36,212 nt of DNA, taken from the NCBI GenBank assembly GCA_027311705.1, contig DAICYJ010000218.1:1-36212 (forward strand). Reading direction: 5' to 3'. Positions 8,656 to 26,222 of this stretch are shown here, piece after piece. The position numbers and the translations under genes are program-made. The stretch's first letter is position 1; each line of letters begins with the position of its first letter. The notes under the pieces are model-generated. The model did not search any database. It had not been told where the DNA came from and was given only the letters and a program-made list of their open reading frames with translations. This DNA comes from Novosphingobium sp. GTDB lineage: Bacteria; Pseudomonadota; Alphaproteobacteria; Sphingomonadales; Sphingomonadaceae.

Positions 8656-9984
8656 TTACATCTCCAGGTAGATGGGGAAGCTGGTGCACAGATCGGCAAC
8701 GCGATCACGCACCCGCTGTTCCACCTGACCATCGCCTGCTTCGCCATTGCGGGCAAGCCCGTCGACCACTTCGGCGATCAGCTTGCCGATCTGACGGAAC
8801 TCATCCTCGCGGAAACCGCGCGTCGTGCCCGCCGGGGTGCCCAGACGGATGCCCGACGTGACGAACGGCGAGCGCGTGTCGAACGGAATGCCATTCTTGT
8901 TGCAGGTGAGCCAGGCGCGATCGAGGCCCTTTTCGGCGATCTTGCCCGAAACGTCCTTAGCCGTAAGGTCCACCAGCATCAGGTGGTTGTCGGTCCCGCC
9001 CGAAACGATGCCGAGGCCCGCTTCCTGCAAGCTGGTCGCCAGCGCCTGGGCATTGGCGACGATCTGGTGGGCATAGGCCTTGAACTCAGGCCGCAGCGCT
9101 TCGGCAAATGCCACCGCCTTGCCGGCGATGACGTGCATCAGCGGGCCACCCTGCATGCCGGGGAACACCGCCATGTTGATCTTCTTGGCCAGGTCCTCGT
9201 CGTTGGTGAGGATCACGCCCGAACGCGGCCCGCGCAAGGATTTGTGCGTGGTGGTGGTCACCACGTGCGCGTGCGGGAAGGGCGAGGGGTGCGCGCCGCC
9301 CGCCACAAGGCCCGAAATGTGCGACATGTCGACCAGCAGCCACGCTCCCACTTCGTCGGCAATCGCGCGGAAAGCTTCCCAATCCCAGATGCGGGAATAG
9401 GCGGTGCCGCCGGCAATGATCAGCTTGGGCTTGGTCTCGCGCGCGATGCGGGCAACCTCGTCCATATCGATCAGGTGATCGTCGGCACGCACGCCATAGG
9501 GGATGGGCTTGAACCACTTGCCGCTCATGTTCACGGGCGAGCCGTGCGTCAGGTGGCCGCCCGAATTGAGGTCCAGCCCCATGAAGGTGTCGCCGGGCTG
9601 CAGCAGCGCAAGGAAAACGGCCTGGTTCATCTGGCTGCCCGAATTGGGCTGCACATTGGCAAAATTGCAGCCGAACAGCTGCTTGGCGCGCTCGATGGCC
9701 AGCGTTTCGATCACGTCAGCATATTCGCAGCCGCCGTAATACCGCTTGCCGGGATAGCCTTCGGCATACTTGTTGGTGAGGACCGACCCGGTCGCTTCCA
9801 GCACGGCGAGGCTGGTGATGTTCTCGGACGCGATCAGCTCGATCTTGGTCTGCTGGCGGTGCAGTTCGCCCCGGATCGCGGCGAAAACTTCGCTGTCAGC
9901 CTGTTCGAGATGCTGGGTGAAGAAACCCGCCTTGCGGATTTCCGGCGCTGCGGTGGCAGTGGTCATCGTGGAGGGCTCCTTCAA
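8656..9984 (-). CDS. glyA: Serine hydroxymethyltransferase
   Basis: 442 aa; [46 protein letters not shown]-lysine motif. Confidence 0.98.
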
Positions 9985-22693: not shown

Positions 22694-22918
22694 TCACGCC
22701 GCAGTAGGATGTTCCGGATCAAGCAGTTTGTGCATGTGTACGATCACATAGCGCATCTCGGCATCATCGACCGTGCGTTGCGCCTGACTACGCCAGGCGT
22801 CTTCGGCGCTGGCATAGTCGGGATAGACGCCGACGAGGTCAATCGCGTTCAGATCGACGAATTCCAGGCCGCGCGGGTCTTTTACCCGGCCGCCCATCAC
22901 AAGGTGAAGCTTCTGCAT
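22694..22918 (-). CDS. DUF4170-like small protein
   Basis: Start at ATG 22918: MQKLHLVMGGRVKDPRGLEFVDLNAIDLVGVYPDYASAEDAWRSQAQRTVDDAEMRYVIVHMHKLL. Confidence 0.8.
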   Translation of the reverse strand: MQKLHLVMGGRVKDPRGLEFVDLNAIDLVGVYPDYASAEDAWRSQAQRTVDDAEMRYVIVHMHKLLDPEHPTAA

Positions 22919-22994: not shown

Positions 22995-23450
22995 TTAGTG
23001 GCGGATCTTCGAAGCGAACTCGTTGGCGCGGCGCATGGCCACTTCACCCGCTTCACGCGCGCCGGCGATGGCCAGGTCGGCCAGATCGAACGCGCGCTTC
23101 TTCGCTTCAGCGCTGCCTTCGCTGATCTTGCCGCCCACGCTGCCGCCGATGTCTTCCAGCTTGTGCACGCCGTCCTTGCTGGCATCCGCAGCCTTGGCCG
23201 CATAGGCAAGCGCCAGCTCGGTGCCCAGCGCGGCGAGCGATGACAGGCGCTTGCCCGCCTTCTTTTTCTGCGATTTGGGAATGGCCCGCGCGATCAGCGC
23301 GCCGATCAGGATGCCGCCGGCGAGCATCGCCACGGGATGTTCCTGCGCCAATGTCTTGACGGTCTTGGCGGAGTCGCCCGCTATTTCGGCGGTGCGGGCC
23401 TTGGCTGCGTCAAGGCGTTCGCGCAGGCGGGTATTGCGATCTTCGCTCAC
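22995..23450 (-). CDS. Small membrane protein, YtxH/DUF883-like
   Basis: GTG start at 23450 (VSEDRNTRLRERLDAAK...); helical then AQEHPVAMLAGGILIGALIARAIPKSQKKK transmembrane segment. Confidence 0.7.
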   Translation of the reverse strand: MSEDRNTRLRERLDAAKARTAEIAGDSAKTVKTLAQEHPVAMLAGGILIGALIARAIPKSQKKKAGKRLSSLAALGTELALAYAAKAADASKDGVHKLEDIGGSVGGKISEGSAEAKKRAFDLADLAIAGAREAGEVAMRRANEFASKIRH

Positions 23451-23467
23451 AGAAAATTCCTTCGGTT

Positions 23468-23749
23468 TCAACGGTCCAGCATGTCCTGCACCAGTTCGCC
23501 AATCGGGCGGCGGAACAGCCACCCCACCAGCGCCGCCACAGTCAGGCCGATCACCGTCTTGTTTTCGCCAGCCACATCGCGGGCGGTGTCGATGGCATCA
23601 ACGACTTCGTCGGTCGCCCGTTCCTTGATCCGCTGGCCGATCGACTTGTCGTCCAGCCCGTCGCGCAGCCGCTCCACGTCGCCGCGCACTTGCGCCCATG
23701 CTTCGGTGCGCAAGGCGCGGGCGTCGGACAGTTGCTTCGCGTCGCTCAT
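23468..23749 (-). CDS. Small tail-anchored membrane protein (DUF3618/YqjK-like, tentative)
   Basis: 93 aa; charged helical N-terminus and C-terminal hydrophobic segment GENKTVIGLTVAALVGWLFRRPIGELVQDMLDR. Confidence 0.7.
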   Translation of the reverse strand: MSDAKQLSDARALRTEAWAQVRGDVERLRDGLDDKSIGQRIKERATDEVVDAIDTARDVAGENKTVIGLTVAALVGWLFRRPIGELVQDMLDR

Positions 23750-24156
23750 GCCGCGCCATCCTTGCCAAGCAGCACGTCGCGCGCCTTACGAAACCGCGAG
23801 ACTGCGCTGAAAAAGCACAGGCCGGACAGTAGCAGCAACCCCAAGCCCACCACGGCAAGAGCGCCCCAAGCTGTCAGCAAGGGGGTAAGGGCCAGCAACA
23901 GCCCCACCACCAGCGCCACCAGCGTGAAGAACCCGAACGCCAGCGCCAGCAGCAACAGCGCCGCCACGCCCTTCGCGCGCCCCCAGCCATAGGCAATCCG
24001 CGCCTGCTGGAATGCCAGTTCGGCTTCGACGAGCGTCTGCCCGTCTTCCAGCAAGGCGCGCACGCCGTCCGTCAGCGATGGATCGCGCAGCTTTTGCGCG
24101 TCTTTCTCAGGTTTCGTCATCGCGGGTGTCGCAGTCGGTGCCGCAATGTCCGTCAA
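23746..24156 (-). CDS. Phage holin family / YqjE-like membrane protein
   Basis: 136 aa; two transmembrane helices after LRDPSLTDGVRALLEDGQTLVEAELAFQQARIAYGW; 4-bp overlaps with both neighbours. Confidence 0.8.
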   Translation of the reverse strand: MTDIAAPTATPAMTKPEKDAQKLRDPSLTDGVRALLEDGQTLVEAELAFQQARIAYGWGRAKGVAALLLLALAFGFFTLVALVVGLLLALTPLLTAWGALAVVGLGLLLLSGLCFFSAVSRFRKARDVLLGKDGAA

Positions 24157-24710
24157 GCGTCCGACGAGCCCGATCCACGGAACAGGCGGGCGAGCATGAA
24201 GCCGGTCGCGGCCGCAATGCCGATGGCCAGGGCCGGGCTCTTGCGCACGAATTCCTGCACGTCTTCTCCCAGTTCGCCCAGATCCTTCGATTCGATCTTG
24301 GCGGCCGTTTCCTGAATGCCGCGCGCTGCGCCACGCGCGTAATCGCCGTATTGCACGCCCAGCTTCTCGTCGATGGTCGTCGCGCTGCCCGAAATCGTCT
24401 TGCTCAGCGCGGTCAGCGCGTCACTGGCCTTGGCCTTGCCCTGAACTGCCAGTTCCAGGCCCTTGTCCTTGGCCGTGGCGGCATAGGCACCGGCTTGCTC
24501 GGACCAGTCGCTGGCGGCGGCGGAAACCTTGTCCTTGGCTGCGCCGGTTGCGGCAGTGGCGCGGCCCACGGCCTCGTCCTTAAGCGCTTCAGCGCCGGCC
24601 TTGGCTTCTTCGATGGCTTTGCCGAAGCGCGACTTGGCTTCGTCCAGGCCTTCGGTCGTGGTCACGCCATCGCCAGCCGTGGTGCTGCTGTCTTTGAGTG
24701 TATCGGCCAT
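24153..24710 (-). CDS. DUF883/YqjD-like tail-anchored protein
   Basis: 185 aa; long Ala/Lys/Glu amphipathic helix then VQEFVRKSPALAIGIAAATGFMLARLFRGS C-terminal TM. Confidence 0.75.
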   Translation of the reverse strand: MADTLKDSSTTAGDGVTTTEGLDEAKSRFGKAIEEAKAGAEALKDEAVGRATAATGAAKDKVSAAASDWSEQAGAYAATAKDKGLELAVQGKAKASDALTALSKTISGSATTIDEKLGVQYGDYARGAARGIQETAAKIESKDLGELGEDVQEFVRKSPALAIGIAAATGFMLARLFRGSGSSDA

Positions 24711-24869
24711 GAGTCTGTTCCTTCTGAAGCGATTCTGCTGCCGCTTGCGCGGTTGCTGCCATCATAAACGATCCGATGCCGCATGGCACAAACGAATTTG
24801 CGCATCGCAGCAGCTTCCCGCCCGTGTGCAGCCTTAACGCCGCTTGCCTGCACGGGTTCCACCCGATAG

Positions 24870-26222
<1,353 letters not shown>

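Follow-up and report, generated by a model that had tools for sequence, protein, structure and literature searches.

A conserved four-gene membrane-protein cassette beside eno in sphingomonads, with an EcfG-type promoter motif interlocked with the eno promoter

A four-gene cassette lying beside eno in a Novosphingobium-like sphingomonad appears to encode an inner-membrane module controlled by a stress sigma factor: it would be driven by EcfG, its four proteins would form a scaffold or coat, and its promoter is interlocked with that of eno. We give this overall reading a probability of roughly 0.6. The window, by which we mean the whole 36,212-nucleotide stretch of DNA analyzed here, comes from a 3.2 Mb assembly, and the gene set, its synteny, the profile relationships, the promoter motifs and the promoter register are matters of direct observation. 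The four genes, labeled A to D, are genuine consecutive open reading frames on the minus strand, just as the preliminary description of this DNA had them, and with a DUF4170 gene they make up the five minus-strand genes between greA and eno:

24153-24710, minus strand: gene A, 185 aa, long amphipathic helices and a DUF883_C-like tail
about 24180-24236, minus strand: C-terminal glycine-zipper membrane segment of gene A
23746-24156, minus strand: gene B, YqjE-type PF07332 protein (Phage_holin_3_6 / Holin-X) with two predicted membrane segments
23468-23749, minus strand: gene C, 93 aa, DUF3618-like by its orthologues
about 23507-23569, minus strand: hydrophobic segment of gene C
22995-23450, minus strand: gene D, 151 aa, DUF883-like
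about 23286-23348, minus strand: internal hydrophobic segment of gene D, with a second amphipathic helical part after it
22694-22918, minus strand: DUF4170 gene, downstream of D
24936-26222, plus strand: eno (enolase), divergent neighbor of A

The closest coupling is between B and C, since their 4-bp overlap (ATGA, 23746-23749) recurs in 42 of the 61 loci compared, while the A/B and C/D spacings vary across the same loci. A 4-bp overlap had also been described between A and B, but it requires B to begin at the TTG at 24156; this start is uncertain, with the ATG at 24120 as the other candidate, and relatives do not keep the A/B spacing. For D, the start is most likely the GTG at 23450, which is preceded by AAGGAA, rather than 23522. 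In most of the relatives examined, D and greA are separated by a DUF4170 gene, which is possibly the fifth cistron of the A-D operon.

The arrangement is widely shared among sphingomonads. By tblastn over the loci of relatives, the order carB-greA, then DUF4170-D-C-B-A, then eno is kept in most of them. Of the 121 Sphingomonadaceae genomes searched with profiles, 117 contain B, and the same 117 contain A; the two genes lie within 1 kb of one another in every one of these, and both are absent from the other four (G011, G038, G050 and G054). C and D were each recovered in 61 of the 64 fetched loci by HMM iteration. Co-conservation and profile similarity, the two properties on which the preliminary description had staked its grouping of these genes, are thus both found. 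A second A-B pair is present elsewhere in genomes G024, G049 and G078.

From their profiles and neighborhood, we consider it highly probable that these genes form a YqjD/YqjE-type set. B scores 39.1 bits against PF07332, above the gathering cut-off of 28.4, which bears out its earlier assignment to a holin family; the model matches 25 of 25 B relatives scanned, and E. coli YqjE scores 75.8 bits. Hydropathy places two closely spaced membrane segments in B, at residues 54-72 and 86-104 counted from the ATG at 24120. The match to PF07332 in all B relatives scanned could point to a dormancy device in which A, C and D regulate a B that forms a holin-like pore or arrests growth, and in E. coli overproduction of YqjD and YqjE does lead to growth arrest (PMC10746276). 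However, overexpressing the homologues from P. aeruginosa had no slowing effect on growth, the cassette has no endolysin neighbor, and in cellular genomes PF07332 says no more than which family a protein belongs to, so that we hold such a device to be quite improbable.

Taken singly, A, C and D gave no match above a curated cut-off in Pfam or NCBIfam. As Ala-rich helical proteins inflate profile scores, we gave weight to gene order, curated cut-offs and shuffle controls (in hhalign, each profile pair was compared with 60 local column shuffles) and not to single E-values. Under these controls, a DUF883 set including E. coli YqjD was matched by A at 95% over 31 columns, by D at 97.6% over 62 columns and by C at 92.8% over 56 columns. 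Against the DUF883 C-terminal glycine zipper (PF19029), A scores 12.7 bits, below the cut-off of 27, and weak matches to this model occur among the relatives of A (13 of 26) and of D (11 of 24). The hydrophobic segments also resemble each other in all three pairings (A-D, A-C and C-D) at about 90%, with hhalign scores of 40-44 against 29 for the best local shuffle, although the similarities of A, C and D lie in short segments and may reflect convergence. The preliminary description had three proteins ending in similar membrane segments; the similarity exceeds chance, but the segment of D is internal, at roughly residues 35-55 of 151 by hydropathy, which leaves some 95 residues beyond it, and only in A and C does it lie at or near the C-terminus. 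The single C-terminal membrane segment of the DUF883 family is therefore present in A and not in D. The B profile matched none of the A, C and D profiles in hhalign; an apparent B-C similarity was an artefact of a fused ORF at locus L074 that sat in both alignments, and was gone once L074 was removed. AlphaFold2 models of A (pLDDT 81) and D (pLDDT 76) are all-helical and added little beyond the sequence.

For C, neither the protein itself nor any other in this genome matched DUF3618 (PF12277), while 4 of 23 C orthologues did (best 3.8e-6). A resemblance of the cassette to the enterobacterial yqjD-yqjE-yqjK arrangement had been proposed, and it holds in that A and D are DUF883-like and B carries PF07332 like YqjE. 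It does not extend to YqjK (PF13997), which is ruled out as a counterpart of C by an hhalign value of 5.8% and the lack of a Pfam match.

The N-terminal part of A differs among relatives. Lys/Pro/Ala-rich basic tails with a net charge of at least +5, resembling nucleic-acid-binding tails, are found in 24 of 53 relatives (e.g. L077, L063 and L079). In the window, the N-terminus of A is acidic and lacks such a tail, and in the A protein of L074 the Lys/Pro/Ala-rich tail sits after the membrane segment instead.

The preliminary description had also raised ribosome sequestration. A and/or D would then tether inactive ribosomes to the membrane of stationary-phase cells with B and C assisting, which would suit the tail similarity to YqjD, the YqjE-like neighbor and the stress-type promoter described below, and the basic A N-termini of relatives could bind rRNA. 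That proposal finds no support in the sequence: the DUF883 N-terminal domain (PF05957) has no match anywhere in this genome, is matched by 1 of 26 A relatives (E 0.044) and 1 of 24 D relatives (E 0.013), and in hhalign reaches 2.5% with A and a weak 41%, below threshold, with D. With this domain unrecognized in A and unreliable in D, and with an acidic N-terminus on the window's A, membrane-anchored ribosome hibernation seems unlikely. Somewhat in the manner of LEA proteins or apolipoproteins, the helical A and D might instead associate with lipid or protect proteins when cells dry out or meet osmotic stress, the membrane segment being an anchor only. Their helices are rich in Ala, Lys, Glu and Gly, and an apolipoprotein A1/A4/E model is matched by 22 of 26 A orthologues with E-values no higher than 0.1, the best being 3e-8, yet such models are composition-sensitive and the window's A scores 23 bits against a Pfam cut-off of 90. 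Since protection of this kind alone would also leave the constant pairing with B and the gene fusions unexplained, we regard it as doubtful.

The fusions point to contacts between B and C and between C and D. In the Sphingomonas-like locus L074 (5977-6705, plus strand), B and C are a single 243-residue ORF in which PF07332 is followed by a weak DUF3618 match. In other alphaproteobacterial families, B is followed by a fused C-D gene (L103:1874-2851, L105:1886-2665 and L107:203-1483) with a DUF3618 part and then a DUF883_C-like, D-like part; the C-like half of these fusions scores 26.2-26.9 bits against DUF3618, above the cut-off of 24.9. On the simplest reading, the sphingomonad C and D would be two halves of one module protein, and B, C and D would act together. 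The cassette had earlier been credited with an extra paralog-like member; for D we rejected this in favor of a split or fused C-D protein.

The region between A and eno contains the following promoter features:

24836-24860, minus strand: EcfG-type promoter of A, with -35 GGAAC (24856-24860), N16 and -10 CGTT (24836-24839)
24826, minus strand: putative transcription start of A, 10 nt after CGTT, base A in 77% of aligned copies
24844-24872, plus strand: housekeeping-type eno promoter TTGCCT-N17-TAGGAG, overlapping the EcfG-type promoter by 17 bp

On the minus strand, 24836-24860 reads GGAACCCGTGCAGGCAAGCGGCGTT, an exact GGAAC-N16-CGTT that matches the EcfG regulon consensus of Sphingopyxis granuli (PMC7083833). 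The exact motif is found in forward orientation in 39 of 62 eno/A intergenic regions, in reverse in none (shuffle mean 0.04), and a relaxed form, GGAAC-N16/17-NNTT, in 52 of 62 forward and none in reverse (shuffle mean 1.0, maximum 4), the relatives counted not being independent of each other. Among exact copies, the boxes are fully conserved while the remaining spacer is 41% identical, and the motif lies about 42-128 nt from eno. In other alphaproteobacterial families, GGAAC-N17/18-GTT occurs 30-80 nt before the likely A start in 8 of 9 A-B modules, where chance would give about 0.01 per 170-nt window; the start codons are less secure in L102 and L108, and L109 has a palindromic match. Genome-wide there is no enrichment of the motif, with 29 sites as against 63 of the reversed pattern, and judged from this one genome it is not significant, so the case for it rests on conservation. 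Two further exact matches on the minus strand, at 23600-23624 inside gene C and at 8698-8722 overlapping the ORF at 8656-9984, are probably due to chance.

The genome also carries the regulatory genes of the EcfG system. NepR was identified at 60 bits (C121), and we read the ORFs next to nepR as coding for an EcfG-like sigma factor and, in divergent orientation, a histidine kinase of the HWE type (L173:4742-7483, on C121 of this genome), with a GGAAC-N16-CGTT preceding nepR-ecfG at L173 6491-6515. A sigma-70 consensus scan gave nothing useful and an Rfam search of the region gave no match. The module is not named in the main-text table of the top 50 EcfG-dependent genes of Sphingomonas melonis, many entries of which read 'hypothetical protein', and in the open-access literature we found no paper linking EcfG to YqjD/DUF883/DUF3618 modules or to eno. 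On the motif evidence, EcfG-type control of the module is very likely, and this promoter lends support to a stress role as suggested in the preliminary description.

GCAAG hardly varies within the EcfG spacer, and just upstream of GGAAC stands CTAT; on the opposite strand these read TTGC-N19-TA[GA], the housekeeping-type eno promoter. Of the 62 regions, 51 have this pattern on the eno strand and none has it on the A strand, against a shuffle mean of 1.2. The EcfG-type and eno promoters overlap in 38 genomes, 37 of them with the identical 17-bp overlap, such that the -35 box of each promoter falls within the spacer of the other, and this interlocking is seen in most Novosphingobium-type relatives. 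In six Sphingomonas-like genomes, the two promoters are 1-71 bp apart and the EcfG-type motif still faces A, and in seven genomes there is an eno promoter without the motif; the motif therefore follows gene A and is not a mere part of the eno promoter. Were GGAAC...CGTT an element of the eno regulatory region only, unrelated to EcfG, the nearly fixed register in the 38 genomes and the confined distance to eno would be accounted for, but the six genomes with separate promoters, the seven with an eno promoter alone and the occurrence of the motif before the same module in other families make this very improbable.

Because the core promoters overlap, two polymerases would be unable to bind simultaneously, and we infer that the overlap may be used to lower enolase under stress. 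A stronger version, in which the interlocked promoters are a conserved growth/stress switch whose EcfG polymerase activates the four-protein membrane module and shuts the eno promoter by occupancy, we put forward only tentatively as a possibility. The promoter architecture itself is precise, with a glycolytic gene and a stress operon sharing one DNA stretch.

The explanation that we favor, a stress-controlled membrane module, takes the cassette as the sphingomonad form of a set comprising the DUF883-like A and D, the PF07332/YqjE-like B and the DUF3618-like C. Under stress or starvation, sigma-EcfG RNA polymerase would initiate at 24836-24860 and transcribe A-B-C-D and perhaps the DUF4170 gene. 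A, C and D would insert through their glycine-zipper-type segments and leave their long amphipathic helices exposed; with B and its two membrane segments they would most likely assemble as a heteromeric inner-membrane scaffold or coat stabilizing the envelope when cells are not growing. In this clade, exclusion of one polymerase by the other at the interlocked promoters would mean that induction of the module lowers enolase transcription. The use of EcfG, the assembly of the proteins, their role at the membrane and the mutual exclusion of the polymerases are each what we infer from the observations above and, taken on its own, a stress-induced membrane scaffold is the most likely function at somewhat short of even odds.

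Small membrane operons of DUF883, PF07332 or DUF3618 proteins have been linked to stress sigma factors in Enterobacteria (sigma-S), Pseudomonas (AlgU) and actinobacteria (sigma-H), and the sphingomonad cassette likely fits this pattern by analogy, with EcfG as the sigma factor. This would link the alphaproteobacterial form of these operons with the EcfG general stress response, large parts of whose regulon are unannotated. We found no earlier paper reporting the cassette in the open-access literature; what is new here is the EcfG-type promoter into A and the definition of the full gene set. In E. coli, yqjD has a sigma-S promoter and is located with yqjE and yqjK (PMC10746276). The yqjC-yqjD-yqjE-yqjK genes are alike in placing a DUF883-type tail beside a PF07332 protein, in co-orientation, in a stress-sigma promoter and in encoding small membrane proteins, whereas in sphingomonads A has no recognizable DUF883 N-terminal domain, C is DUF3618-like and not YqjK, there are two DUF883-like members (A and D), the promoter is EcfG-type and eno is the neighbor. 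P. aeruginosa PA3040-PA3041-PA3042 is likewise an operon of YqjD-like and YqjE-like genes under an envelope/stress sigma factor, being AlgU-controlled with a stationary-phase maximum and a connection to envelope stress (PMC11302039); it differs in its sigma factor and in a third gene without a recognized domain, and only there are phenotypes known. The expression table of a study that overexpressed sigma-H in Actinoplanes (PMC11205660) lists two pairs of DUF3618 and Holin-X genes (ACSP50_3381-3382 and ACSP50_4921-4922); these share the adjacency of DUF3618-type and PF07332 genes and the link to a stress sigma factor, but that list has no A-type gene and the phylum is distant. Among the modules found here, those of L103, L105 and L107 share the gene order, A-B followed by a DUF3618-DUF883_C fusion, and two of the three have an EcfG-type motif upstream, the difference being that C and D are fused there and separate in sphingomonads.
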